Positions 9,491-47,788 of a DNA stretch of 64,000 nt are shown piece by piece. The DNA is from Leptolyngbya sp. FACHB-8 (GTDB lineage Bacteria; Cyanobacteriota; Cyanobacteriia; Elainellales; Elainellaceae), in assembly GCF_014695575.1 (NCBI RefSeq), contig NZ_JACJOO010000052.1, positions 62,001 through 126,000 of the forward strand. The letters are read 5' to 3'. The position numbers and the translations under genes were made by a program. Numbering within the stretch: the first letter of the stretch is position 1; the number at the start of each line of letters is the position of its first letter. The notes under the pieces were generated by a model. The model was given only the letters and a program-made list of their open reading frames with translations. It was not told where the DNA came from and searched no databases.

Positions 9491-11701
9491 ATGTCTTTTA
9501 CTCTCCCCGCACTAGCTGTTTACGCATCTTATGTGAAGAACCGCTTCGTTCAGAAGACGCGGCGCATGATGGAAACCCAGGAACATTTCCTACATGAGTT
9601 ACTAGCAGCTCATCAGCATACGGAATTAGGGCAAAAATTCGGTCTGAAGGATATCAAAACGATCGATCAATTTCGAGCACAGGTTCCTCTCTGGTCTTAC
9701 CTTCAATATGAGCCTTATACAGAGCGTATTGCCCAGGGAGAAAACAATATCCTCAATCCCGATCGCGTGACCTATATCAATCTCACCAGTGGCTCTACTG
9801 GAAAGAAAAAGCAAGTCCCCGTAACTCACCGATTCCAAAAGACTTTGCGACGGGCTGATCTGGCAGGTATGGGTTTTGCCTTGGAGGGTTTAAAGCGTCG
9901 TCATCGCAAATTTGGCAAGTTGTTTATCACCAACTCGGTGCAGGTACAGGGGAGAACCTCTGCCGGTATTGAGTATGGGCCTGTAAGTGTAGGTAGTATT
10001 CGCAAAGGCAAGCCCCTTTTTGAGCAAGCCTTTGCCCATCCCTTTCGGGCATTAGAAATTAGCGACACCTTGGCCCGACATTATGTATGTCTTCTATTCG
10101 CCTTGCGAGAGCCTCAACTGAGGGGCATGGTAGCGAACTTTCCCATGCTTATCCTACGAACCTGCGGCTATCTGGAAGAATACGCTGAGGCCCTGATTCA
10201 CGATTTGGAGCATGGCACGATCGCCCCCTGGCTTCCCATCGAACCCGATATCCGGGCTGAGCTAGAGCGGCGTTGGAATGCTCATCCCCAGCGAGCAACC
10301 CAACTCAAAGCTGCTTTTCGGACTGAGGGGCGGTTAACCCCAAAACTGGCGTGGCCCCAGCTTAGTTTTGTCACCACGGCTCGGGGAGGAACCTCTGGTT
10401 TTTACCTGGAGCGCTTTCCAGATTATTTCGCAGATACGCCAGTCTTTGGTGGCGTTTATGGAACTGCCGAAGCCACCTTTGGGGTGTATCCCGACTTTGA
10501 CACCGATGGCAGTATTTTGGCGATCGAAAGCGGCTTTTTTGAATTCATTCCTGCGGATCAGTGGGGGGCAGAACATCCCAAAACGCTATTGCCCGAGGAA
10601 GTGAAGGTGGGCGATCGCTACCGTATAGCCGTCACCACTTACAGTGGCTTTTACCGCTACGACATTGGCGACGTTGTGGAAGTCGTCGGATTTTACGAGC
10701 AAACACCGCTCATCGTCTTCCGCCATCGGCATGGAGGGCTGTTGTCTTCAACGACAGAGAAGACTACAGAATTTCACGTCACGCAGGTCATGCAACAGCT
10801 TCAGCATGAGTTTCACGTGCACCTGGATGATTTCTGTGTCACCTTGTCCGACCAGGAATTCCCAGCGCGTTATCTAGTCAACATTGAATTGGTGGAGGGC
10901 CAGCAGCTTGAGCAGCCCATGGCTTTCATCCAGCGCTTTGAATATTGGATGCGCGAATTTAACAACCCCTATGGCACGGTGCGAGAGGGGCAAGTGCCAC
11001 CGCCCCGCCTCCGCATTTTGGCCCCCGGCAGTTTTACGAAAGTACGGCAGCGGCACATTGAAAGGGGAATGTTTGATTCTCAATTAAAAATTCCCCATAT
11101 CAGCGAGGATCGGCACCTATTGGCTGGACTGCCTGTATTACAGGAGGTAGACCTTCAAGAGGAAGGCGTGGCCGAAAGCCGCTTGCCTTCATGGAATGCT
11201 CAAGTACCGGAACCCGCTCAACCGAGCAAGATTCCTGGTTTGGAGTTCTCTCAGGGGGCACATCTGCTTCATGCTGATCTGCGCCGGATGGATTTGCGAG
11301 GAGTAGACCTGCGCCGGGCTGACTTGAGTGGTGCCGACTTAAGTGGAGCTGATTTGCGAGGAGCTAATCTCAGCGGGGCTTTTCTACGGGAGGCTAATCT
11401 GAACGAAGCCAATTTAGTGGAGGCAAATCTTCAGGGAGCCGATTTAACAGATGCCACGTTAATTGGCACGTGTTTGCAAAAAGTCTGTTTCCACGAAGCC
11501 TATGTGAATCGAGCCCGGTTTGATCATGCCGATTTGACAGGCGCTCAATTTTGTGGGGCAGTGCTTTGGCAGGTGAGCTTTCAAGAGGCCAATCTCACCC
11601 ATGTAGATTTTGAAGATGCTCAGATGAAAGATGTGACTCTAATGGATGCCACCCTAGACGGTACCCGCCTGGTGGCGCACTCGCAGCAACGTTTATCGTA
11701 A
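9491..11701 (+). CDS. GH3-family acyl-acid-amido-synthetase-like protein fused to C-terminal pentapeptide repeats
   Basis: Residues 1-560 are a GH3 (plant auxin-responsive) adenylate-forming domain. The ATP-binding motif is NLTSGSTGKKK (98-107), then YGTAEATFGVYP, YRYDIGDVVEVVGFY and HRHGGLLSSTTEKTTEFH. Plant GH3 enzymes adenylate carboxylic acids and join them to amino acids; bacterial substrates are unknown. After a linker, residues about 588-720 are A(D/N)LxxA pentapeptide repeats (ADLSGADLSGADLRGANLSG), a right-handed beta-helix often used for protein contact. The paralogue at 44511 (556 aa) lacks this tail. No biosynthetic neighbour hints at the substrate. Confidence 0.88.
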   Translation: MSFTLPALAVYASYVKNRFVQKTRRMMETQEHFLHELLAAHQHTELGQKFGLKDIKTIDQFRAQVPLWSYLQYEPYTERIAQGENNILNPDRVTYINLTSGSTGKKKQVPVTHRFQKTLRRADLAGMGFALEGLKRRHRKFGKLFITNSVQVQGRTSAGIEYGPVSVGSIRKGKPLFEQAFAHPFRALEISDTLARHYVCLLFALREPQLRGMVANFPMLILRTCGYLEEYAEALIHDLEHGTIAPWLPIEPDIRAELERRWNAHPQRATQLKAAFRTEGRLTPKLAWPQLSFVTTARGGTSGFYLERFPDYFADTPVFGGVYGTAEATFGVYPDFDTDGSILAIESGFFEFIPADQWGAEHPKTLLPEEVKVGDRYRIAVTTYSGFYRYDIGDVVEVVGFYEQTPLIVFRHRHGGLLSSTTEKTTEFHVTQVMQQLQHEFHVHLDDFCVTLSDQEFPARYLVNIELVEGQQLEQPMAFIQRFEYWMREFNNPYGTVREGQVPPPRLRILAPGSFTKVRQRHIERGMFDSQLKIPHISEDRHLLAGLPVLQEVDLQEEGVAESRLPSWNAQVPEPAQPSKIPGLEFSQGAHLLHADLRRMDLRGVDLRRADLSGADLSGADLRGANLSGAFLREANLNEANLVEANLQGADLTDATLIGTCLQKVCFHEAYVNRARFDHADLTGAQFCGAVLWQVSFQEANLTHVDFEDAQMKDVTLMDATLDGTRLVAHSQQRLS

Positions 11702-13629: not shown

Positions 13630-16600
13630 TTACTGAAGCCTCTGGGCTGTATCCAATGCGAAATTTAATGGCGTAGCAAGCTTCTGATAGCTGGTTGCCA
13701 AAATCGTGTCCAAATGACGACGGAAGACTTGCCATTGATGAGGATTAGGCCGATAGGTTTGATCCACTTCTCGCACAAACAGAGGAGCTGCCAAAAGCGC
13801 CTGATAATCAGCATTGTGTTGAGATGTGGGAGCCAACATTCCAGCCTCTCCATCGGTCGGTACGAGGCCCGAAGGGAGATGCCCTTCTAGAAGAGCCACG
13901 ATCGCCGCCTGACAGGTATGGGTATCAATCCCACGTTGCTCCAGCATGCGCAATATCCCCTCTAAAGTCGTGGGGGTATCTGGGAAAATCCGCAGCAATT
14001 CCATCAGCAAGAAATAGTCGCTATAGCGATGGTGACCCTGATCAATCACCTGAGGGTGCAGGGGGACTGCGGCCAGCCCGTAGGCAACTCGGCTACAGAT
14101 GGAGAGGTGATTGTGCTGTGGAGCTTCGGGTTGCGTGTAGGTATCTTGAACAATGGTGGCGTTGGGTAGCTTTTGACGTAGCCAGCGGGCGATCGCCGCG
14201 AATGATGCCGAGCCACCTGTACATAACACCTGGTTCACCTGCAACACAGGAATCCCCGTTTGAGTCAGCAGGCCATTCAATTCGCGGTTGAGCCGCTGGA
14301 TGTAGGGTAACAATACCCGGCTCCCTAAATCCTGGCGGTTGATAGTCAGGGATACCCCACCCAGGGTGACGTATCCTCTTTCCTGTTGTTGCAGGGTCAG
14401 CTTCAAGTAACGGGCCGCTTCCAGCAGCCCCGAGCCTACCCCTGCCCCTAACAACCGCTGTTGCAAAATTTGCCGATTGGCTGCATCGGGATCGCCCACG
14501 ACGGGCAGAGCCAGATGTTCCCAGCCCAGAGCTGCCCACGGATCTGCCCAGTCCAGATCCTCACCTGCCTGAAACGTCGAGCCGCCCTCTGGCAGAATAG
14601 CCGCCCGATCCTGGCTAGTCCGATTGGCCTGTCGTACCCAGGCCGGATAGATCAACTGACAGATAATGTCTTGATCCAGGGCATTCCCACCGTAGGGAAG
14701 AGTGCGCCGTGTAATGTCTGTAGGAGATAGCCGCTGCAAGTGTTCGGGCAGATTGACGAGCGCCAATTCGGTCACGCTAGCTCCGCCATTCATCACCAGC
14801 GTTCCTCCCTGCCAGTGGGCCTGGAAGAGATCCGGATTGGGAGTCAGGTTACTGGGTAAGGTCACCGCATCCTCAGGAGCCAGAGCCGAGAGCAATGTGG
14901 CTGTGCTTTCTTCTACCAGATAAATTTGGGCTGGGTCATCCACTAACCGCGCTGCCAAGATCGCCTCGCGCACATTAAAGCGATAGGTATCCGACCAGGC
15001 TGCTGGATAGCTGACCATGACCCCAGCTAGCTCTTTCAAGGCTTGTTGCAGAGTGTCATCGGAAAGTCCCACTGCTCCACAACTGAGTACAGAGGTATCT
15101 GAACCCGTTGTGGAGTCAGGGCTCGTATAGTTGAGACTGGTTAGTAAAGCCCTCAGCGCCTGGTGCAGGGTGCTAAGAGGGATGGTGCGCTGGTCTGACC
15201 ATTGCAGAACCGGTTCCCAATGTGCGGCGTTGGCTGTGTAGTAGGGGATGCCCACCCGCAGGGCAGACTTGAAGTCGCGTAAGGGCTGCCGGGTGGGATG
15301 GCTGAATTCCTGCCGAGTAATGGTCAAAGAGGCGATCGCGACCTCTGACCCCTCCATGTCCCCGGTGCTGGTGGGAGTAACATACACCGCCATGGGCAGG
15401 CGGTAGGTTCTTTCAGGGATGGGTAAGCCGCCGTGGATAGGGCCAGGCAACTTCAGCTCCAACCAGAATATTGGGTACACCGTAGCGGTTGGACGGTGTA
15501 GCAGTACCGCAGAAATACCTGTGGTACCCAGATCAATGCCCAAATACCAGGTTGAACGAGGCGGCACTCGCTTGGAGGCACCCGTTAGTGATGGTGGGGC
15601 GAAGAGGGTTGCGTCGTCTTCCAGGGGATCGGTCACCGAAAAGATGAGGGAATCCAGGTCATCTTCCTGGTCGCGCAGTAACTCCAGGCGATCGCCCAGG
15701 GGGTCTTCGCTATCGAAAAGGTCGAGGGGCGATCGCTGTAGTCGTTGAAACAACGCTGCCAGTTCCGGGTCGACTTCGTCTTCTTCATCCTCGAGATCTG
15801 CGGTTAGGTCCAGCAATGCCAAATCTGGCTCGACGTCATCGGGTAAGGCTACGGAATTCGTTTCCGTCTCATCCGCCTGTAAGCCTATGGCCTGCAGAAT
15901 CAGCTCAGAAGGGTAATCCAGACTGGGGTCGATCGGGGCGGCCGCATCAGGGACAACTTCAACTGGGCCCGGAGCCGTTTCGATCGGGGCGACCGAATCC
16001 TCGAGGGGGCGATCGTCTAGGTCTTTTTTTTTTGACTCTTCTGAGCCAGGCTCTAAGAGTTCTTCGTCGTACAGGTCAATGCCCGCTTGATCAAAATCCG
16101 TTCCCAAGGGGGGTGCTGGAGATGTATTCGGAGTGTCTTCAGGTTCAGAGGCAGACCCTATTGGTGCCTCTGCGATACTGTTCGGTACACTCTCAAACAG
16201 TTCTCCCAACCCATCCAGGGTAAAGGCATTATCATCCAGACTGGGTTCCGGCGGAACCTCGGCACCGAAGGTTTCCAGGAACAAGGATGCATCGTCTAAG
16301 GAGGTGTCCTGAGCTCCAGGAGGAGCTACCTCAATGGCTGGAGGAATTTCCTCAACCCCGTCAAACCAGGCAGCCAATTCCATTGGAGTTGGTGCTGTAT
16401 CCAATGCATCCGCGAAGCTATCCAGGGTATCTTCCGTGACCGCATCGGAGGACAACTCCAGAGTCGTATCGGGAGTTGCCTCAAGAGTGTCAACGGGCAC
16501 CAACGGGAGAACAGGATTTTCCAGGGGCAGGGTTTCGTTAACAGCAGGGCTTTCTTCTGGATCGATCCCTGCGTCATCGGGCCATTCCGCTAGCAAATCT

Positions 16601-19600
16601 TCAATGCTAGCAGGAGGCGTTGTCATCACATCCTGGAAATCCTCCAGGGTAAGGTCCTCCCGGTCGGGTGGCAGTAAAGGCTCGAGCGGTACAAACGCAA
16701 TCGTTCCTTCAGGTGCAGCACTTGGGGAAAGTTGCTCCACGTCTTCTAAGAAGAGAGGCGGCGGGGGCGGTGCGCTATCTGTAAGTTCTGGGAGGTCTAT
16801 GCCAAACCCAAATAAGTCCTCGTCGAGGGATGTTGCTGTGGGTTCTGGGCTTTCCCCAGAAATGTTCAGCTCCTCCTCGAAGGACAGCTCCACAGGTTGA
16901 GATGGTAGATCAAGGTCAACATCTAATAAGGCATCGGCTGAAGTAGTGGATGGATCCTCAGGAGGTTCACCCTGTTCGTCTGTCGCGGTCGATAAATCAA
17001 GCCATTCGTCGCTTGTGACGCCAGTAGGAGCTTCAGCCAAATTCTGTAAGACATCATCTTGCTCTGTAGAGTCAGATGTGGATAGATTTAACCAAGCCTG
17101 ATCCAGGTCATCATCCAAATCCCCAGAGGACGTGTCAGGCAGTTCTGCCAGAATATCGCTCTGCTCATCAGCACCAGCCGTGGAGAGCTTCAGCCACTCC
17201 TCATCCAAATCCTCATCGGTGGCCTCAGGCAGCTCTGTCAGAGTATCGTCCTGCTCATCAGTATCAGCCGTGGAGAGATCCAGCCACGCTTCGTCTAATT
17301 CTTCTAAGGTGGGCTCAACGAGTTCTGCTGGGGCATCGCTCTGCTCATTAGCATCAGGAGTAGAAAGATTAAGCCACTCCTCATCTAAATCCTCGGCAGT
17401 GGGTTCAGGTAACTCTGTCAGAGTATTGCCCTGTTCATCCGTGTCAACTGTAGAGAGAGCGAGCCATGCTTCGTCCAATTCTTCGGAGGTGGGCTCAGCG
17501 AATTCTGACAAGGCATCACTCTGCTCATCAGCATCAGCCGTGGAGAGATTGAGCCACTCCTCATCCAAATTCTCGATGGTGGGCTCCGTGAGTTCTGCTA
17601 GGGCATCACTCTGCTCATCAGCATCAAGAGTAGAGAGATTGAGCCACTCCTCATCTAAATTCTCAGAGGACGTATCCGGCAGTTCTGTCAGGATGTCACT
17701 TTGCTCATCAGCATCAGGAGTAGAGAGATTGAGCCACTCCTCATCCAAATTCTCGCCGGTGGGTTCCGTGAGTTCTGCCAGGGCATTACTCTGCTCGTCA
17801 GCATCAGCTGTGGAGAGATTGAGCCACTCCTCCTCATCTAAATTCTCAGAGGACGTGTCAGGCAGTTCTGCCAGGATGTCGCTTTGTTCATCAGCATCAG
17901 CCGTCGAGAGATTGAGCCACTCCTCATCCAAATTCTCGCCGGTGGGTTCCGTGAGTTCTGCTGGGGCATCGCTCTGCTCCTCAACATCAGCCGTGGAAAG
18001 ATTGAGCCACTCCTCATCCAAATCCTCGGCGGTGGCCTCAGATAACTCTGTCAGAGTATCGCTCTGCTCCTCAACATCAGCTGTGGAGAGATTGAGCCAC
18101 GCTTCGTCTAATTCTTCTGAGGTTGGTTCCGTGAGTTCTGCCAGGGCATCACTCTGCTCATCAGCATCAGCCGTGGAGAGATTGAGCCACGCTTCGTCTA
18201 ATTCTTCTGAGGTTGGTTCTGTGAGTTCTGCCAGGGCATCACTCTGCTCGTCAGCATCAGCCGTGGGGAGATCGAGCCACTCCTCATCTAAATCCTCGGA
18301 GGACGTGTCAGGCAGTTCTGCTAGGGCATCGCTTTGCTCATCAGAGCCGGCTGTGGAGAGATTGAGCCACTCCTCATCCAAATCCTCAGAGGTGGATTCA
18401 GGAAAACCGGCTAGGATATCGCTCTGCTCATCAGCATCAGCCGTGGAGAGATTAAGCCACTCCTCATCCAAATCCTCAGAGGTAGGTTCCGTGAGTTCTG
18501 CTAAGGTGCTGCCCTGCTCATCAGAGTCATCAACAGAGACAAGCCATTGCTCATCTAGATCCGCTGAGGGAGAGCTTGATGGTTCAGGGAACGATTCAAC
18601 GTCCTCGGTGAGGAAGGTAGATAAATTTAATTCCTCTTCCTCCGTTTCCAGCGGTGTCGGTGGAGTTTCCTCGATAAGTCGATCGATCAGGGCATCATCT
18701 ACAGGGGGAAGGTTTTCCTCCTCAAAGACCGTCAAAGGAAGATCTTCCATGAGGCTTTCGAGCAAGGCTTCAGGAGTCTCTGCTTCTGGGAAGAAGTCCG
18801 TGGTCTGCTCATTGTCCTCCTCTGAACCGAAGTCTTCCATCAGAGACTCTTGAGTGAGGAATATGTCTAGCTCCAGTGCTTCAACCTCTGGGGCAGGCTC
18901 CCCTAATAAATCCTCATCGGTAGTGACGTACGCACTCCAAGGCCCGCTGGGTAACTCAGTGGTTGATTGATCTTCCGGAGCTGCTTCCTCTGGCTCGGTT
19001 GCTGTGTCATGAAGCTCGTCTTCCAGTAGTTCCAGGGTTTCCTCTTCAATGTTGTCTGAGGCAAGATCTCCTAGCAGGAGATCTTCCAGCAGGGGCTCGT
19101 CCTCCACAGGAAATGAGTCTGAACTAGGGGTGCTGAGCTCCTCTTCTAGGAATGCATCGTCACCCTCCATCTCAGGTAGCCTTGTCTCCGGAGAAATAGG
19201 TTCCTCGTCCGGAAGCTCGCGGAATGCATCTTCTAAACTGGTAGAAATATCTTCCGGTTCGTCTGCTGATAAGTCAGACAGAAAGGAAAACTCTTCAGTC
19301 TCTTCACCGGAGGCACGGCCTTCCAATGTTGACAGTTCAGCGTCTAATTGCTGAAGTACGTCCTCATCCACCTGAAGCTCAACCCGAGGTGTCTCAACCA
19401 CGGCCTCACTGACTAATAGATCTTCATCCGGAGATGCTGGAATGTAGGCATCTTCTGGCAGGCTTCCTTCAGAACGCAAAGCATCCAGAGAAGCAGCCGT
19501 ATCTGACAACGCAATCAAATCTTCCAGGGAAGAAATGACATCCGCTGGCATGTGTTGGTTAGCAGCTGCGCGCTCTGCATTAAGTAGTTGAGTATCTTCT

Positions 19601-21321
19601 TGCTCACCACCGTCCGCTACAGGCACCTCGTCAAACAGTAACTGTTCGATGGTTTGATTGGATTCCTGTGAAAAATCCCCGGATGCTGGTAACTGGAATT
19701 CTTCTGGGGAAAACTCGGCAGGCTCTGCTGACAGGTCTGCTAGCCCCTCAAAAAACTGACTTTCAAAATCGCCAATAGCCCCAAGATCCTCGCCAGCTTC
19801 TAAACTTGTGGCTTCTATCTCGCTGTTGGTGGCTTGTTCCGCATCGGCAATATGGCGATCTACAGGCGGTTCTATGTCCTCACTCGGAGCTACATCCGCT
19901 CCAAAGAGGCTCTGGTAAAGGGCATCTAACTCATCATAAATTCCTTCGGGTGATGCTACGGGGGCAGTATCCGCGGCATCGTCTTCCGTTTCTAACTCTG
20001 TGCTGATCTGGTTCAGCAATTCCAGGGCAGAGTCAATGTCGCCAATGGAGTTGTCGAGGGAAACATCGTCGAGGGGAATTTCTTCCAGGGGAGCGATCGC
20101 CGCCTCATTGATTTGGAAGATGGTCATGTCATCATCCTGGAAGCGAGTCGCTGCTAAGCTCTCATCCACCTGGAACATGGTCATTTCGCCTGGGTCCAAA
20201 TCCCCCAAGTCAGGAGTGGATGATACCAGCTCCAGGTCGTTCACCGCTTGATTCAAGTCGCTAAGCCCGGAGGATGCCCCCATGCCCGTTGGCGGTTGCA
20301 AGATAGTAGCTTCACTCCCGGCCAACTCACTGATTAAAGAATCGAGGGAGCTGGTATCGCTTCGCGAGCTTGCTGGCAGGCGTTGTCCGCTGGAACCCGG
20401 TAATGCTTGCCAGTCAGTTCCTTCCAGGGAGGATTGCAAATATTGCGACGCTTCCCGCCCTAACTGCTGAGCCAAGCGATTGACCAGGGCTGTGAAAATA
20501 GCTTCTCCCTGATGCCCCAGCGTGTGCATCTTATCCAGCCCCTGGCTGAGGGAGTCTTCGTAGGTCTGAATGTTGCGTTGTAAGGACTCAAAAATAACCC
20601 GCAGCGTTGTATCAAGCTTCAGCAGCAGTTGATCAGACTGGGTTTGAATTCGCTGCAGTTGATCCAGCCGTTCCTGGGGCGTAAGGGGTGGGATATAGCT
20701 GGCAAAGCGGGCAGCATCGGCTGGCGGAGCGGGCTCTGGGGGGGCTGAGTTAGCCGGGGGCAGTGTTCGTGACTCCAGGGTGGTGAGCATTTCTGCGACC
20801 TGCACCGTCAGATTTTCCTGCAACCGCCCCATTAAAGATTGCAGAAATTCGGACAGGGCTTGCTGTTGCTGTTGGGTATCGACCTGGGGCGGAAGAGCAT
20901 ATTGTTGACGCTGCGCTTCCAGTTCCCGAATTTCGCTGACCAGGGAATCCCTCCGCTGGCGCAGGTCTTCGACCTCACCCCGCATGGGCTGCATGATGTT
21001 GGTGCGCAGGTAAGTCACCTCTTGCAATACGGCCTGCAAAACCTGCTGAGCTGACTCCCCAGGCGACTGTGCCGAAGCCGTCGAGTTGACAGGGCCTAGA
21101 GCTGGGTCTCCAGACAAGGTTGCCATCGGCACGGGATTGGACAACTCAGGTTTCAAATTGGCTTGCTGGAGGCTGACCAGATACTGTCGTGTGCGCTCCA
21201 GAAGTTGCCGCTGTTGTTCAGATTCCCCCGCCATCACCCAGGGCAAACGGGGGCTGGCTTTACGCAGCGCTGCATCAATGGACTGGATCAGTTCCTGGAT
21301 TTGAGCCTGTTGCGAATTCAC
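13630..21321 (-). CDS. Giant (2563 aa) protein: coiled coil, acidic 30-residue repeats and Hsp70/actin-fold ATPase domain
   Basis: Start GTG at 21321. Residues 1-330 are helical, Q-rich and coiled-coil-like. Residues about 330-1900 are extremely acidic and contain about 18 tandem ~30-residue repeats (core LDEEWLNLSTADADEQ) encoded at 16970-18560. From about residue 1920 an Hsp70-type nucleotide-binding domain begins with WYLGIDLGTTGISAVLL (phosphate 1). It continues with VMVSYPAAWSDTYRFNVREA, EESTATLLSAL, LVMNGGASVTELALV (phosphate 2-like) and VLCTGGSAS (adenosine motif). The last ~160 residues are helical. No substrate-binding domain of DnaK type is seen, and no signal peptide. Cyanobacteria are known to have large Hsp70-like proteins of unknown function. 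Repeats are near-identical at DNA level, so recent unequal recombination is likely. Confidence 0.88.
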   Translation of the reverse strand: MNSQQAQIQELIQSIDAALRKASPRLPWVMAGESEQQRQLLERTRQYLVSLQQANLKPELSNPVPMATLSGDPALGPVNSTASAQSPGESAQQVLQAVLQEVTYLRTNIMQPMRGEVEDLRQRRDSLVSEIRELEAQRQQYALPPQVDTQQQQQALSEFLQSLMGRLQENLTVQVAEMLTTLESRTLPPANSAPPEPAPPADAARFASYIPPLTPQERLDQLQRIQTQSDQLLLKLDTTLRVIFESLQRNIQTYEDSLSQGLDKMHTLGHQGEAIFTALVNRLAQQLGREASQYLQSSLEGTDWQALPGSSGQRLPASSRSDTSSLDSLISELAGSEATILQPPTGMGASSGLSDLNQAVNDLELVSSTPDLGDLDPGEMTMFQVDESLAATRFQDDDMTIFQINEAAIAPLEEIPLDDVSLDNSIGDIDSALELLNQISTELETEDDAADTAPVASPEGIYDELDALYQSLFGADVAPSEDIEPPVDRHIADAEQATNSEIEATSLEAGEDLGAIGDFESQFFEGLADLSAEPAEFSPEEFQLPASGDFSQESNQTIEQLLFDEVPVADGGEQEDTQLLNAERAAANQHMPADVISSLEDLIALSDTAASLDALRSEGSLPEDAYIPASPDEDLLVSEAVVETPRVELQVDEDVLQQLDAELSTLEGRASGEETEEFSFLSDLSADEPEDISTSLEDAFRELPDEEPISPETRLPEMEGDDAFLEEELSTPSSDSFPVEDEPLLEDLLLGDLASDNIEEETLELLEDELHDTATEPEEAAPEDQSTTELPSGPWSAYVTTDEDLLGEPAPEVEALELDIFLTQESLMEDFGSEEDNEQTTDFFPEAETPEALLESLMEDLPLTVFEEENLPPVDDALIDRLIEETPPTPLETEEEELNLSTFLTEDVESFPEPSSSPSADLDEQWLVSVDDSDEQGSTLAELTEPTSEDLDEEWLNLSTADADEQSDILAGFPESTSEDLDEEWLNLSTAGSDEQSDALAELPDTSSEDLDEEWLDLPTADADEQSDALAELTEPTSEELDEAWLNLSTADADEQSDALAELTEPTSEELDEAWLNLSTADVEEQSDTLTELSEATAEDLDEEWLNLSTADVEEQSDAPAELTEPTGENLDEEWLNLSTADADEQSDILAELPDTSSENLDEEEWLNLSTADADEQSNALAELTEPTGENLDEEWLNLSTPDADEQSDILTELPDTSSENLDEEWLNLSTLDADEQSDALAELTEPTIENLDEEWLNLSTADADEQSDALSEFAEPTSEELDEAWLALSTVDTDEQGNTLTELPEPTAEDLDEEWLNLSTPDANEQSDAPAELVEPTLEELDEAWLDLSTADTDEQDDTLTELPEATDEDLDEEWLKLSTAGADEQSDILAELPDTSSGDLDDDLDQAWLNLSTSDSTEQDDVLQNLAEAPTGVTSDEWLDLSTATDEQGEPPEDPSTTSADALLDVDLDLPSQPVELSFEEELNISGESPEPTATSLDEDLFGFGIDLPELTDSAPPPPPLFLEDVEQLSPSAAPEGTIAFVPLEPLLPPDREDLTLEDFQDVMTTPPASIEDLLAEWPDDAGIDPEESPAVNETLPLENPVLPLVPVDTLEATPDTTLELSSDAVTEDTLDSFADALDTAPTPMELAAWFDGVEEIPPAIEVAPPGAQDTSLDDASLFLETFGAEVPPEPSLDDNAFTLDGLGELFESVPNSIAEAPIGSASEPEDTPNTSPAPPLGTDFDQAGIDLYDEELLEPGSEESKKKDLDDRPLEDSVAPIETAPGPVEVVPDAAAPIDPSLDYPSELILQAIGLQADETETNSVALPDDVEPDLALLDLTADLEDEEDEVDPELAALFQRLQRSPLDLFDSEDPLGDRLELLRDQEDDLDSLIFSVTDPLEDDATLFAPPSLTGASKRVPPRSTWYLGIDLGTTGISAVLLHRPTATVYPIFWLELKLPGPIHGGLPIPERTYRLPMAVYVTPTSTGDMEGSEVAIASLTITRQEFSHPTRQPLRDFKSALRVGIPYYTANAAHWEPVLQWSDQRTIPLSTLHQALRALLTSLNYTSPDSTTGSDTSVLSCGAVGLSDDTLQQALKELAGVMVSYPAAWSDTYRFNVREAILAARLVDDPAQIYLVEESTATLLSALAPEDAVTLPSNLTPNPDLFQAHWQGGTLVMNGGASVTELALVNLPEHLQRLSPTDITRRTLPYGGNALDQDIICQLIYPAWVRQANRTSQDRAAILPEGGSTFQAGEDLDWADPWAALGWEHLALPVVGDPDAANRQILQQRLLGAGVGSGLLEAARYLKLTLQQQERGYVTLGGVSLTINRQDLGSRVLLPYIQRLNRELNGLLTQTGIPVLQVNQVLCTGGSASFAAIARWLRQKLPNATIVQDTYTQPEAPQHNHLSICSRVAYGLAAVPLHPQVIDQGHHRYSDYFLLMELLRIFPDTPTTLEGILRMLEQRGIDTHTCQAAIVALLEGHLPSGLVPTDGEAGMLAPTSQHNADYQALLAAPLFVREVDQTYRPNPHQWQVFRRHLDTILATSYQKLATPLNFALDTAQRLQ
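16970..18560 (-). repeat. About 18 tandem ~90-bp coding repeats inside the giant gene
   Basis: Each unit encodes about 30 residues. It begins LDEEW or LDEAW, continues LNLSTADADEQSD, and ends with LTEPTSEE or LPDTSSED/N. Two alternating tail types are interleaved. Neighbouring units are almost identical in DNA. One unit has an extra Glu (LDEEEW) and one has an insertion (LDDDLDQAW). Such an array is prone to copy-number change. Confidence 0.9.
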
Positions 21322-41616: not shown

Positions 41617-43800
41617 TTACCCAAGCACGATTAGGATGTCTTGATTGGTCATGGCTAACCCTGTTGCGAGCTGAGCAATCTGAAACTGCTGTGTTGCTCC
41701 TGTGCCATCTACATCGAAGAACAGTGCCCCTGTGCGGTTGTTGTAGATGAAACGATCGCTGCGATCGCCTGCCCTCGCTCCAATTCGAAACTGGTCTGGA
41801 TTAATTGCAGCGTTATATAGTAGGCCTCCTTGTAAGGATGTTCCTACGACCTGAATCGCATCATCCGCTACCGAAAAATCTATCAGGCGATCAACCCCAG
41901 CCCGAGGGGCATCCAGGGTAAACCAATCCTGCCCAGAGCCACCTGTCAGGGTATCGGCTCCCTGTCCTCCATAGATCAGGTCTTTCCCTGCACCACCTAC
42001 AAGCACATCGCCGCCTGCTCCTCCCAGGAAGGTGTCATTGCCTAGGCCACCATTCAGGCGATCTGAGCTAGTTCCACCCTCCAGGCGGTCACTGTCATTC
42101 CCACCCTCCAGGCTATCCGCACCATCGCCCCCCAGAAGAAAATCATTCCCATCCCGGCCGAAGAGGGTATCGTTGCCGGTATCTCCCTGGAGGCCATCGT
42201 TGCCCAGGCCACCATCTAAGCGATCAGAGCCGTCTCCCCCGAGGATTGCGTCATCCCCGACATCTCCGCTCGCCACATCGTTACCACCATCGCCGAAAAT
42301 GGTGTCGAATCCGGCATCTCCATAGATTAGGTCATTGCCCAACCCCCCGTGCATTTGGTCGATTCCAATGCCGCCCCGAAGGGTATCGGCTCCGGCATCT
42401 CCATAGATCAGGTCATTACCATCGCCACCCAGTAACAGGTCGCTGCCCGTAACGCTTGTGCTGCCCCCTGGGCCCATTTCCCCAAATAGAAAATCATTAC
42501 CAACACCGCCATTCAAAGCATCATTGCCGGTTCCGCCATAAAGGTAGTCGCTGCCATCGCCGCCATCTAATGCGTCGCTGCCCTGGCTAGCCAGCAATGT
42601 ATCGTTGCCAATGCCACCCTGCAGGGTGTCGGCTCCAGCATCCCCCAAAAGCTGATCATTGCCATCCTCCCCTTGCAGCAGGTCATTGCCCGCTGCCTCC
42701 AGGATGTTTTGGGTATCAGAGCCGGCCTCTAGCACATCGTTGCCTACACCCCCCCGCAGTACGTCATTTCCGGCCTGCCCAAAGAGAAAGTCGATGCCTG
42801 CACCGCCTTCTAGGCGATCGCTGCCATCGCCACCTGCCAGGGTATCGTTGTCCAGGCCTCCCAGTAGCGTATCGTTTCCAACTCCACTCGACAGGCTGTC
42901 ATTCCCCGCATCTCCATAGAGTTGGTCATTAGCACCGGCTGATGCCAACGTGTCGTTGCCGTCGCCGCCATGCAGGGTATCAAGCCCGGCATTGCCTAAG
43001 AGAACATCATTGCCGGCATCTCCCCAGAGCAAATCGTCCCCGCTAGCTTCTAGCGCGTCGTTGCCGTTAGAACCGCCTTCTAGAGTGTCATCGCCTGCAC
43101 CACCGAACAGTGTGTCGTTCCCGTTCTGCCCAAAGAGACTGTCGTTACCCAATGCCCCTTCCAGGCGATCGTTGTCGTTACCGGCCTGGAGCGTGTCATT
43201 ACCGGTACTTCCAAATAACTGATCGTCGCCATCCCCGCCTACAACGAAATTGGCGCTGTCAGTTCCTGTGGATTCCACCGTATCCGTAGGGTCAAAACCG
43301 CCAAACAAAGTATCATTGCCAGTTCCACCATTGAGGGTGTCAGTACCCCCACCACCCACCAGTAGATCGGCGTCTGCATCACCGCTCAACTGATCGCTGC
43401 CTAAACGACCTTTCAGGATGTCATTGCCATTGCCGCCATTGAGGGTATCATTCCCAATGTTGCCGAGTAGCAGATCATTCCCATCGTCTCCAGACATGAG
43501 GTCGTTACCTGCATCTTCGGAAGGGTTACTGACGTCAGAACCCCCTTCTAGCGTGTCGTCGCCTGCGCCGCCCCGGAGGGTATCATTACCGGCATCTCCA
43601 AATAGCATGTCGTTGTTGAGGCCACCGTCGAGGCTATCAGTCCCCGCACCACCTCGCAGGGTATCGTTGCCCTCTTCACCAAACAACTGGTCAACGCCCT
43701 CGTTGCCTAGCAACTCATCATCCCCTAAGCGTCCAAACAGGGTATCGTTTTCAAGACCACCCGTTAGAACGTTGTTTTGTTCATCACCAATTAACTGCAT
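41617..43800 (-). CDS. RTX-type calcium-binding repeat protein
   Basis: The 727-residue protein is almost entirely GGxGNDxLxGGxGxDxL nonapeptide repeats (from residue 10 to about 640). These form parallel beta-rolls that bind calcium. No enzymatic passenger domain and no N-terminal signal are present. The C-terminal ~90 residues (LTGGSGQDWFTLD, FDVDGTG, FQIAQLATGLAMTNQDILIV) look like the uncleaved type I secretion region usual in cyanobacterial RTX proteins. It is probably exported and surface-associated. GAAGGGAAG precedes the ATG by a few bases. Expression as a surface or matrix protein is inferred. Confidence 0.9.
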   Translation of the reverse strand: MQLIGDEQNNVLTGGLENDTLFGRLGDDELLGNEGVDQLFGEEGNDTLRGGAGTDSLDGGLNNDMLFGDAGNDTLRGGAGDDTLEGGSDVSNPSEDAGNDLMSGDDGNDLLLGNIGNDTLNGGNGNDILKGRLGSDQLSGDADADLLVGGGGTDTLNGGTGNDTLFGGFDPTDTVESTGTDSANFVVGGDGDDQLFGSTGNDTLQAGNDNDRLEGALGNDSLFGQNGNDTLFGGAGDDTLEGGSNGNDALEASGDDLLWGDAGNDVLLGNAGLDTLHGGDGNDTLASAGANDQLYGDAGNDSLSSGVGNDTLLGGLDNDTLAGGDGSDRLEGGAGIDFLFGQAGNDVLRGGVGNDVLEAGSDTQNILEAAGNDLLQGEDGNDQLLGDAGADTLQGGIGNDTLLASQGSDALDGGDGSDYLYGGTGNDALNGGVGNDFLFGEMGPGGSTSVTGSDLLLGGDGNDLIYGDAGADTLRGGIGIDQMHGGLGNDLIYGDAGFDTIFGDGGNDVASGDVGDDAILGGDGSDRLDGGLGNDGLQGDTGNDTLFGRDGNDFLLGGDGADSLEGGNDSDRLEGGTSSDRLNGGLGNDTFLGGAGGDVLVGGAGKDLIYGGQGADTLTGGSGQDWFTLDAPRAGVDRLIDFSVADDAIQVVGTSLQGGLLYNAAINPDQFRIGARAGDRSDRFIYNNRTGALFFDVDGTGATQQFQIAQLATGLAMTNQDILIVLG

Positions 43801-44510: not shown

Positions 44511-46181
44511 ATGGCAAATCTTCTGCTGAGTCTGATTGCGGAGGCCGCTCTTCAGGCACGGCGAGATTTTATCGCCAAAACCTATCAAACTGAGGCCGTG
44601 CAGGTGAAATTCTTGCGATCGCTCCTCCACGCCAACCAAGAGACTGTACTGGGGCAACACCATAGCTTTGCGAAACTCCAGTCTGTGCAGGATTTTCGCG
44701 ATGCGGTGCCCGTTTCCCGTTACAGCGACTATGAATCCTACATTCAGCGAGCCTTTCAGGGTGAAGCGAATGTCATGACCCCAGACCCGGCGATCTACTT
44801 CAACATGACGAGTGGGTCAACGGGTAAGCAGAAACTGATTCCGGTTACCCGACGATCGCGACGGGCTGTATCCTATGCCAATCAGGTGGCTGTTGGGTTT
44901 GGTACCCATGCGGCTCGTCGCGATCGCCGTCCCCTGGGCAAGATGCTGTTTACAAACTCGGCACGGTCGTTTGGGCGATCGCCCCAGGGTATTCCCTATG
45001 GCCCGATCAGCGTTAGCGACCTCAATCTGATGGGGCCAATCTATCAGCAGGTGTTCGCTCATCCTTTTGAGGTGATGAAGGCGGGCGACAGCGTGACGCG
45101 CAACTACCTCTGTCTTCTGTTTGCACTCACCGATCCAAATTTACGGATTGTTAGTGCAACCTTTCCGGTGTATGCCCTCACGTTCTGCGAACACCTGGAA
45201 ATCCATGCAGAAAGCCTAATCGAAGATTTGGAAACCGGGACCTTTGCACCCTGGTTGAAACTGGAACCCGAACTGCGGGAAGTGCTGGAGCGACAGTGGA
45301 GGCCCCACCCTCGACGAGCAGCAGAATTGCGCCACATTCTTAACGCGGAAGGGCGGTTAGTGCCTCATCGAGCCTGGCCCAACCTGGCCTTTATCGTCAC
45401 GGCTCGCGGGGGAACTTCCAACTTCTATATCAATCGCTTTAAGGATTACTTTGCGGATACCCCTGTATTTGGTGGCACCTATTCTTCGGCGGAAGCAACC
45501 TATGGGGTACACCGTGATTTTGGTACGGATGGCGTCATCCTGGCGGTTAACAGCGGCTTTTACGAATTTGTACCAGAGTCGGAGTGGGAAGCTGAACAAC
45601 CGAAGACACTGTTACCCCATGAAGTGACGGTGGGCGATCGCTACCGTATTTTGATCAGCAATCTTAACGGGTTCTACCGTTACGACATTGGCGATGTGGT
45701 GGAGGTTGAGGGCTTCTACAACACGGCCCCCATCTTTGTGTTCCGCCACCGCCGGGGTGGGCTCTTGTCTTCCACCACAGAGAAGACGACTGAGTTTCAC
45801 GCCATCCAAACCATGCAAACCCTCCAGCGAGAATTCGGCATTGCTCTGGAGAACTTTTGCATCACCCTCTCTGACCCTGAAATTCCTCCCCGATATCAGG
45901 TCAACATTGAACTGGCTCCAGGGTCAACCTTAGAAGACCCGACTAAATTCATCCACCGCTTTGATGAAGTCCTGGCGGAGCTTCATGCGTCCTATGCCCT
46001 GCGCCGCCCAGAGCCCATTCCCGATCCTCGGCTACGGATCTTAGCTCCCGGTAGCTTTAACCAGATTCGCCAACGGATGATTGATCGCGGTGTGCTGGAG
46101 TCCCAGATTAAATTTCCTCACCTGAGTGATGATCGTCATTACTTAGAAGGGCTGACGGTGATGGAAGAGGTGACGTTTTAG
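44511..46181 (+). CDS. GH3-family acyl-acid-amido-synthetase-like protein
   Basis: The 556-residue protein is a full GH3 domain without extra modules. ATP motif NMTSGSTGKQK (98-108), GGTYSSAEATYGVH, YRYDIGDVVEVEGFY and FRHRRGGLLSSTTEKTTEFH are all kept. It is clearly paralogous to the protein at 9491 (shared motifs and length of the core) but lacks the pentapeptide tail. It presumably adenylates a carboxylic acid and transfers it to an amino acid or other amine; the substrate is unknown. AGGAGG precedes the ATG by about six bases, predicting good translation. A hairpin follows the stop codon. Confidence 0.9.
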   Translation: MANLLLSLIAEAALQARRDFIAKTYQTEAVQVKFLRSLLHANQETVLGQHHSFAKLQSVQDFRDAVPVSRYSDYESYIQRAFQGEANVMTPDPAIYFNMTSGSTGKQKLIPVTRRSRRAVSYANQVAVGFGTHAARRDRRPLGKMLFTNSARSFGRSPQGIPYGPISVSDLNLMGPIYQQVFAHPFEVMKAGDSVTRNYLCLLFALTDPNLRIVSATFPVYALTFCEHLEIHAESLIEDLETGTFAPWLKLEPELREVLERQWRPHPRRAAELRHILNAEGRLVPHRAWPNLAFIVTARGGTSNFYINRFKDYFADTPVFGGTYSSAEATYGVHRDFGTDGVILAVNSGFYEFVPESEWEAEQPKTLLPHEVTVGDRYRILISNLNGFYRYDIGDVVEVEGFYNTAPIFVFRHRRGGLLSSTTEKTTEFHAIQTMQTLQREFGIALENFCITLSDPEIPPRYQVNIELAPGSTLEDPTKFIHRFDEVLAELHASYALRRPEPIPDPRLRILAPGSFNQIRQRMIDRGVLESQIKFPHLSDDRHYLEGLTVMEEVTF

Positions 46182-46278: not shown

Positions 46279-46587
46279 CTAAGCTCCCAGCAGTTCATCC
46301 AGGACATCCAGGGCCTCACAGTTGTTGGCGATCGCCGTTGGTTGTGGCTTAGGTGGCGCAACCCACTGGTTGGCTGAGGGTTGAGACGGTGAGAGCATAT
46401 TCGCTCGTTGCGCTCCATGAGGCGTTCCTGCTGTGCCCCCCATGTACTCGTCTGCATAGCGCCGGAAGACGGCCTCGACCGCAGCGCGAGCATTTTTCAG
46501 CCCCCATTCATCAGCGATCATTTGCGCTTTATCCAGCACATCACGGCTCAGCCGCACTTTGTTGTCTTTTACTTGGTCGTTATACAT
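46279..46587 (-). CDS. Ribbon-helix-helix protein, probable ParR-like partner of the ParM-like ATPase
   Basis: The 102-residue protein has an N-terminal ribbon-helix-helix pattern: strand KVRLSRDV, helix LDKAQMIADEWG, helix ARAAVEAVFRRYADEYM. A flexible Pro/Gln/Ser tail ends LDVLDELLGA, which could contact the filament as ParR tails do. It overlaps the end of the ATPase gene by 19 bases, which suggests translational coupling. It likely binds DNA as a dimer and may control the operon. Assignment as ParR is by analogy with plasmid ParM-ParR; no sequence family is certain. Confidence 0.75.
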   Translation of the reverse strand: MYNDQVKDNKVRLSRDVLDKAQMIADEWGLKNARAAVEAVFRRYADEYMGGTAGTPHGAQRANMLSPSQPSANQWVAPPKPQPTAIANNCEALDVLDELLGA

Positions 46588-47594
46588 AACTGCGTATTAC
46601 TCGACATCGTGTACAAGCCACGGACATTGGCGAATTGAGGATCGCCCATCACCGTGAAGAGTTTGCGTCCAGTCAATCGTTCGGAAATGAGGTGAGTACT
46701 GCCGCCCGTCACCAGGAATCGTGTCACACGGGGCATGTAAGGCGTGTACTGGGCACGTACTGTTTGGAAAATACCTTTGAACCAGGGTTCCAGATGCTCA
46801 TCCAGCCAGGGTGCCCAGGTGAGACCCGTATCCGCGTAGTTATGGCCGTTGCGGAAGCCATCCATCACAAGGCTTGGATCGGCGGTGGTGCCCAGAATGC
46901 TGGTCAAACGCTTATCGAAGCTGATGGAGACAGCCAGCTCGTAGGCACCACCACGATCCATTACATTTTCATCAATCACCTCACCTTCATCGTCTACCAG
47001 ACGGGTTAGCCACGTGCCTCCACCGATGTCTACCACAATGGTGTAACCACTATCAGGGACCAAACCCAGTTGACGAGCATAGTAGTACGTACCCATCCCT
47101 TCCCGTTCGATCTCAACCTGAGTAACCGTCACCCGATAATCCAGGTCATTGCGGCGGAATTCGTGCATCCCCAGCAGTTGCTCGCGGATAGCAGCACTGT
47201 TGCGATCGGGATCGGGAGTAGAGGCAAAAACTTGTACGGCAAACTCGGTAGAGCCGTTCCAGGGTTCCAGGCAGGCGTAGAGATGGAGCCGAGATAGTTC
47301 GACTTTGTTTTCGACGACGGTTTGCTGCTGACGGCGATATTTATAAGCCTGGGCTCCGAAGTGATAGCGGCTGCCGTCGGGTAGCTCAATGAGGGGAGAG
47401 GCATTGGAAAAACTAACCGAATCGCGCCCCTGTGGCAACTGGAAGCGAACAGACCGAATCGCTCTGGGGTGGCCAATCCCATCGTAAAATTTCAGGTCGT
47501 AATTGCCAGCATCAAGGGCTAGAATGCGATCGCCCGTCCCATTGCCAACTGAGGGCTCTTTCCGAGGTCTGCGGGTTCTGGTACCAATTGTCAT
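46569..47594 (-). CDS. ParM/StbA-type actin-like ATPase
   Basis: The 341-residue protein has actin-fold motifs: ILALDAGNYDLKFYDG (phosphate 1), YTIVVDIGGGTWLTRLVD (phosphate 2) and RFLVTGGSTHLI (adenosine). Such ATPases form filaments that push plasmid copies apart. I chose the ATG at 47594 because AAGGAAGAAC directly precedes it; the longer TTG-type frame to 47723 adds a non-conserved lead. The order ATPase then RHH protein is that of a plasmid type II partition cassette, here in what appears to be chromosome. Inverted TAGTAC/GTACTA sites lie 40 bases upstream. Confidence 0.87.
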   Translation of the reverse strand: MTIGTRTRRPRKEPSVGNGTGDRILALDAGNYDLKFYDGIGHPRAIRSVRFQLPQGRDSVSFSNASPLIELPDGSRYHFGAQAYKYRRQQQTVVENKVELSRLHLYACLEPWNGSTEFAVQVFASTPDPDRNSAAIREQLLGMHEFRRNDLDYRVTVTQVEIEREGMGTYYYARQLGLVPDSGYTIVVDIGGGTWLTRLVDDEGEVIDENVMDRGGAYELAVSISFDKRLTSILGTTADPSLVMDGFRNGHNYADTGLTWAPWLDEHLEPWFKGIFQTVRAQYTPYMPRVTRFLVTGGSTHLISERLTGRKLFTVMGDPQFANVRGLYTMSSNTQLCITTK

Positions 47595-47633
47595 AGTTCT
47601 TCCTTCGTGACTATCTGGGGCGTTCGTCCCCAT

Positions 47634-47678
47634 TAGTACACAGGTACTATACCACTTGTCTGCTTTCAGGGATAGTAC
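47634..47678. promoter_or_regulatory. Candidate operator/centromere-like repeats upstream of the ParM-like gene
   Basis: TAGTAC (47634-47639) and GTACTA (47644-47649) form an inverted pair with a 4-base spacer. A third TAGTAC is at 47673-47678. They lie 40-85 bases upstream of the ATPase start, where an RHH protein would bind. Binding is inferred. Confidence 0.5.
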
Positions 47679-47695
47679 GTATTTATTATTTCTTT

Positions 47696-47788
47696 TACAG
47701 CGCTTTGCGCTTGAATTAGCCATGGTTGTTTTTGGGAGCGCGGCCCTCCCAAAAACAACCAGATTTTAAGCGCTTGAAAAGTGCTGTA
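47696..47788. repeat. Family A hairpin element, copy 3 (inverted)
   Basis: TACAGCGCTTTGCGCTTGAA at one end and AAGCGCTTGAAAAGTGCTGT plus A at the other match the frame of copy 2 in reverse. The inner 15-bp stem is 47724-47738 with 47746-47760. Its stem sequence differs from copies 1 and 2. Confidence 0.87.

Follow-up and report, generated by a model that had tools for sequence, protein, structure and literature searches.

How does a domain of the Hsp70 type come to stand near the C-terminal end of a very large acidic protein, and what could it be doing there? The question is raised by a single open reading frame of Leptolyngbya sp. FACHB-8, located on the minus strand of the 64,000-nucleotide stretch of DNA that was analysed (hereafter, the window). 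This frame (13630-21321) has a GTG start and encodes 2563 amino acids with zero internal stops, and the plus-strand reading of the same interval contains many stops. The whole genome holds an identical stretch within a 2573-aa open frame, and the single 2563-residue protein proposed in the initial annotation is thereby borne out. All parts of this protein described below are encoded on the minus strand.

The domain in question corresponds to residues 1922-2423 (14053-15558). Its AlphaFold2 model (pLDDT 87.2, pTM 0.90) retrieved DnaK nucleotide-binding domains (NBDs) with Foldseek at E values of ∼1e-13, and DnaK structures head both structure comparisons (VIA Z 22.0 to DnaK, with 371 residues aligned at 3.8 A). 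The predicted fold is that of an Hsp70-type NBD, and the Hsp70/actin-fold domain previously placed on the C-terminal side is confirmed, an actin-type fold being present in the prediction. Among the structure matches listed, no family other than those of Hsp70 type was recognised. At the level of sequence profiles, the window protein has no match to Pfam HSP70 (PF00012), and no Pfam family was found for its domain at E 0.01; one of the 21 rows of a wider set matched HSP70 (E 0.0016). The genome itself gives four separate strong HSP70 matches. It also encodes a 539-aa Pfam HSP70 protein (L173 781-2397, C43) that is not among these four DnaK-type proteins and has a different C-terminal part. Synechocystis slr0086, presumably the protein described as 'similar to DnaK', was considered as a member of the window family and dropped, the FACHB-8 genome having this separate 539-aa protein that matches Pfam HSP70.

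We then examined the nucleotide site, using Hsc70 numbering, in which we take D199 to be the phosphate-2 Asp and K71 the lysine discussed here. The phosphate-1 motif YLGIDLGTTGISAVLL (residues 1926-1941, 15499-15546) and the adenosine motif QVLCTGGSASFAAIARWLRQKLPNA (residues 2364-2388, 14158-14232), both characteristic of an Hsp70 NBD, are present and conserved. In a 63-row alignment (A2), the phosphate-1 Asp (Asp1930 in the window protein) and the adenosine Gly-Gly (2369-2370) occur in all 63 rows; the position equivalent to K71 is Lys in 58 rows and Arg in 5, and the connect-1 Glu is kept in 58. The phosphate-2 motif TLVMNGGASVTELALV (residues 2174-2189, 14755-14802) lacks the catalytic Asp, which is replaced in every A2 row, by Asn (37) or Ser (23) in 60 of them and by Thr, His and Gly in one each. 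The window protein has Asn2178 at this position; in a profile alignment with the four DnaK-type proteins that FACHB-8 encodes, N259 of the domain falls on their phosphate-2 Asp. This loss is not universal, as the position is Asp in 3 of the 21 rows of the wider alignment (A1). Judged from its residues, the domain seems to be without one catalytic residue. Because the binding residues are kept and the phosphate-2 Asp is lost, we infer that it binds ATP with weak hydrolysis or none. The site, with its phosphate-2 Asp lost in most members, points away from the normal ATPase that the initial label would imply.

A canonical substrate-binding domain (SBD) is a beta-sandwich. Where the SBD would be, the model has a domain of ∼140 residues (residues 2424-2563, 13633-14052) that is confidently predicted as mostly helical with two short strands, is conserved in the family and gave no match of weight against PDB or Pfam. 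No SBD-beta sandwich with a lid follows the NBD, in agreement with the earlier remark that such a domain is absent. The protein could still be an active ATPase or chaperone, with the helical domain at its C-terminus or the acidic chain standing in for the SBD and with hydrolysis by altered chemistry. Most nucleotide-contact residues are indeed kept, the Hsp70 NBD is the nearest fold, and acidic chains can show chaperone-like activity. However, the replacement of the phosphate-2 Asp throughout A2 and a C-terminal domain unlike a beta-sandwich make this reading unlikely, and the earlier view that this is not a usual chaperone is supported. In summary, the protein resembles DnaK and other canonical Hsp70s in its NBD fold and its phosphate-1 and adenosine motifs, but it differs in the C-terminal place of the NBD, behind a coiled coil and a long acidic chain, in the Asp mostly lost from the family and in the SBD that is not seen. 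Having looked for defining features of the canonical Hsp70s and not found them, we do not class it among these.

Another comparison is offered by Ssz1 of the yeast ribosome-associated complex, a non-canonical Hsp70. The NBD of Ssz1 binds ATP without hydrolysis, and the protein has an SBD-beta and partners with Zuo1 (PMC7083937). Ssz1 is among the structure matches of the window domain (Z 19.9). It differs in its SBD-beta and its Zuo1 partner, whereas no SBD is seen in the window protein, for which non-hydrolysis is a prediction. No paper describing the window protein's family was recognised among those retrieved from the open-licence literature, subscription journals being outside the scope of the search.

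The actin superfamily fold would also suit a filament-forming protein of the ParM, MreB, FtsA or PilM kind, with the coiled coil and the acidic chain as side arms. Weak PilM_2 profile matches, pointing to the actin-like protein of the type IV pilus, occur in four of the 21 rows (E 0.0009 at best); the match of the window protein is short and below the Pfam cut-off (E 0.053). However, the structure matches listed are Hsp70-type chains and the shared stretch of sequence is Hsp70-like, and we regard a filament of this kind as improbable. No pilus genes are found among the conserved neighbours read, and the passages on cyanobacterial filament-forming coiled-coil proteins in PMC7002697 make no mention of Hsp70 or DnaK. 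A second actin-fold-like protein, possibly ParM-like, was noted by eye elsewhere in the window (46569-47723, minus strand; ALDAGNYDLKF, VVDIGGGTWLT). The large size, acidity and repetitiveness of the Hsp70-like protein might in turn suggest a cell-surface or secreted protein. This is very improbable given that residues 1-60 are a charged segment in which no signal peptide is seen by eye, and given the predicted Hsp70-type nucleotide fold. As no membrane segment is seen by eye in the translation either, and the structure matches listed are those of Hsp70s, the surface- or filament-like role suggested initially is left unsupported.

To what extent is this architecture peculiar to one strain? At E 1e-5, a search with the ATP-binding part retrieved hits from 71 of the 292 genomes of the phylum. 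With the 21-row profile and a cut-off of 1e-20, 67 of the 292 were matched; all of these belong to the class of the window, and each has a single matching place, apart from G172, whose match fell into two pieces of one frame. Scanning named genomes yielded 386 encoding stretches, the best 80 of which were used; from their record titles, we take these 80 to be cyanobacterial. This architecture is found again in other cyanobacteria. The window protein is, by sequence, a member of a family and not a single oddity.

Among 101 loci, the ATP-binding domain shares one frame with the N-terminal module in 71; in 18 the two are in separate frames, and in 12 only the ATP-binding part was found. After 12 additions (113 loci), 73 are fused and 27 are split, while only the ATP-binding part was found in 12 and only the N-terminal part in 1; both counts include the identical pairs L055=L157, L032=L067, L035=L094 and L070=L167. 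A frameshift or gene-fusion artefact is rejected, since a form that is fused in 71 of the 101 loci is not a frameshift confined to one assembly. In clean splits, the coiled-coil/acidic gene and the ATP-binding gene are adjacent and on one strand. A tree of the fused (73) and cleanly split (17) rows, built with a quick method without a mixture model and carrying a long-branch warning, implies nine fusion or fission changes, seven of which are forced by starred branches. The tree leaves out ten ambiguous splits, the 12 ATP-binding-only loci and the N-terminal-only locus; several of the loci left out may reflect frameshifts in draft genomes or the ends of contigs. In the tree, the window protein falls among fused relatives, and the adjacent group contains six split rows and a single fused one. 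That the two parts have been repeatedly joined and parted argues for their working together.

The neighbourhood of the gene is partly conserved. Of the 20 loci fetched, 18 have a gene for a Crp-type regulator upstream in divergent orientation; a gene for a DUF2232 membrane protein occurs in 17 of the 20, and one of CobT type in 11. Upstream of the gene, as observed in L042 and other loci, the divergent regulator of Crp type comes first and is followed by the DUF2232 and CobT-type genes; this conserved order is not seen at that place in the window. There, and likewise in G011 by position, a SpoIID-type gene occupies the upstream place instead.

The N-terminal module, residues 1-330 (20332-21321), gave ZapB-like and other coiled-coil profile matches in the window protein. 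A relative's structure model has long helices in this part (pLDDT ∼50-68), and the N-terminal coiled coil proposed initially is thus borne out. Residues ∼80-298 are also homologous to the N-terminal part of an EamA-type transporter encoded in the same genome and in relatives. This cyanobacterial paralogue shares the homologous coiled-coil module, but has a membrane transporter domain where the window protein has the acidic chain and the NBD. The module is present in all 12 transporter paralogues examined. In FACHB-8, the module-bearing transporter gene (L152 886-2682, C50) is located elsewhere in the genome and does not adjoin the Hsp70-like gene.

The two genes tend to be found in the same genomes. 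Across 139 genomes of the class, taken in listing order, both are present in 58, the Hsp70-like gene alone in 9, the transporter alone in 4 and neither in 68 (phi 0.81, uncorrected for phylogeny). The Hsp70-like gene is thus present in 58 of the 62 genomes with a module-bearing transporter. Four genomes, whose best match was a ∼340-aa transporter without the N-terminal part, had first been taken out of the transporter set. Excluding the small-genome family f19 gives counts of 58, 9, 4 and 33 (phi 0.74, likewise uncorrected for phylogeny). Two control genes of the window, compared with the Hsp70-like gene in the same class, gave phi values of 0.14 and 0.15. A pairing of the N-terminal modules of the Hsp70-like protein and the transporter is a hypothesis that these sequence data put forward.

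Between the two ends lies the acidic region, residues 331-1911 (15589-20331), whose ∼1580 residues correspond well to the huge acidic middle described at first. Per 100-residue stretch, Asp and Glu together make up 0.24-0.36 of residues 401-1900, and Lys and Arg at most 0.04. Its probable disorder, also part of the initial description, is supported by this composition and by a relative's model. This model, which covers nearly the full length of L072 (46 residues were omitted; pLDDT 40, pTM 0.26), has no visible docking of motifs, at a confidence too low to bear on docking.

The acidic region varies in length from 317 to 1683 residues across fused loci and diverges rapidly, with two short motifs standing out. 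Motif 1, GIYDELDALYQSLFG in the window protein (residues 460-474, 19900-19944), has the consensus DEVDxLYxSLFG, with the form DEVDQLYASLFG in many Nostocales and DELDALYQSLFG in the window protein. Motif 2, EDAYIPASPDEDLL, with the helix-prone stretch after it, covers residues 623-668 (19318-19455), and its region is helical in a relative's model. With patterns that were composed after viewing the sequences, and in loci that are related and not independent, motif 1 was counted in 66 of 87 loci, compared with 0.04 on average over 50 shuffles, motif 2 (PASPxENLL) in 54 of 87 against a shuffled mean of 3.7, and a weaker third pattern (TxFQ) in 28 of 87 against 8.9. These 87 loci come from a set of 89, two with stretches of <200 residues being omitted. 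No protein of the FACHB-8 genome other than the window protein contains motif 1, and no match to this motif was found in PDB. Once both motifs were removed and the window array reduced, acidic-hydrophobic patterns were still in excess in 38 hand-chosen loci, [DE]LF being observed 92 times against 25.3 in shuffled sequences; two non-acidic control patterns were not in excess.

Part of the region is repetitive. TRF detected 15.7 copies of a 90-bp unit at 17111-18524 (score 1297), which correspond to residues 933-1404 and to a 30-residue unit with the core LDEEWLNLST; by pattern, we counted 17 units. The estimate of ∼18 repeats was therefore fair, the ends of the array being degenerate. This array has the highest score among the 100 loci examined, 52 of which contain in-frame tandem arrays. 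The units differ between loci. Many have an acidic-hydrophobic core, such as FTLEDAFG (L104), LEDFLLES (L042) and VIDELFAQ (L082), and some, for example those of L090 and L100, are without one. Neither L157, a close relative from the same genus, nor L158, one from the same family, carries the 90-bp array; it is therefore not a defining feature of the family, and looks recent.

The acidic chain might be a mere spacer or charge brush, with the repeats as neutral expansions and only the two ends of the protein of importance. This is what the wide range of acidic lengths in fused loci and the variation of arrays by lineage, including the absence of the window array from L157 and L158, would lead one to expect. 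However, the retention of motifs 1 and 2 in most loci and the enrichment of acidic-hydrophobic patterns beyond them speak against a passive chain, which we find rather doubtful. Other proteins of the window were noted as well. A 727-aa protein (41617-43800, minus strand) consists nearly entirely of GGxGxDxLxGGxGxD-type repeats. Two proteins on the plus strand (9491-11701 and 44511-46181), which we take to be GH3-like, have a third copy elsewhere in the genome, and the former carries C-terminal pentapeptide-type repeats, as seen by eye.

The reading that we tentatively prefer, at somewhat short of an even chance, is that of a multivalent acidic scaffold under the control of an Hsp70-like switch that binds ATP and hydrolyses it poorly. 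It would be a two-part cyanobacterial scaffold whose parts are here fused. The N-terminal helical module would self-associate or pair with related modules, including that of the EamA-type membrane transporter, as its homology and co-occurrence suggest. The long acidic chain would form a flexible array of short acidic-hydrophobic motifs, a few of them conserved family-wide, through which one or more partners could be bound multivalently; in some lineages, including that of the window, a stretch with an acidic-hydrophobic core has been multiplied in tandem, perhaps to this end. In the C-terminal Hsp70-like domain, ATP would be bound with little or no hydrolysis, so that, by analogy with yeast Ssz1, nucleotide binding may hold a conformation and drive no chaperone cycle. 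The helical C-terminal domain would be a likely output or docking surface. A more specific form of this switch-and-scaffold reading is possible, but not probable: the Hsp70-derived, non-hydrolysing domain would act as an ATP sensor, the scaffold would be tethered to the membrane via the coiled coil shared with the EamA transporter, and partners would be gathered according to the ATP level of the cell, perhaps as a condensate, with several lineages having independently multiplied an acidic-hydrophobic binding motif of their own.

If the preferred reading is true, cyanobacteria have an Hsp70-fold family, unnamed by Pfam, in which the engine of a chaperone has apparently become a module for regulation. 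The natural fused and split forms, the two conserved peptide motifs and the single catalytic substitution would make it directly testable, both for binders of the motifs and for ATP binding alone setting the state of the protein. The family would then also bear, as Ssz1 does, on the way in which Hsp70s give up hydrolysis and take on roles as scaffolds.
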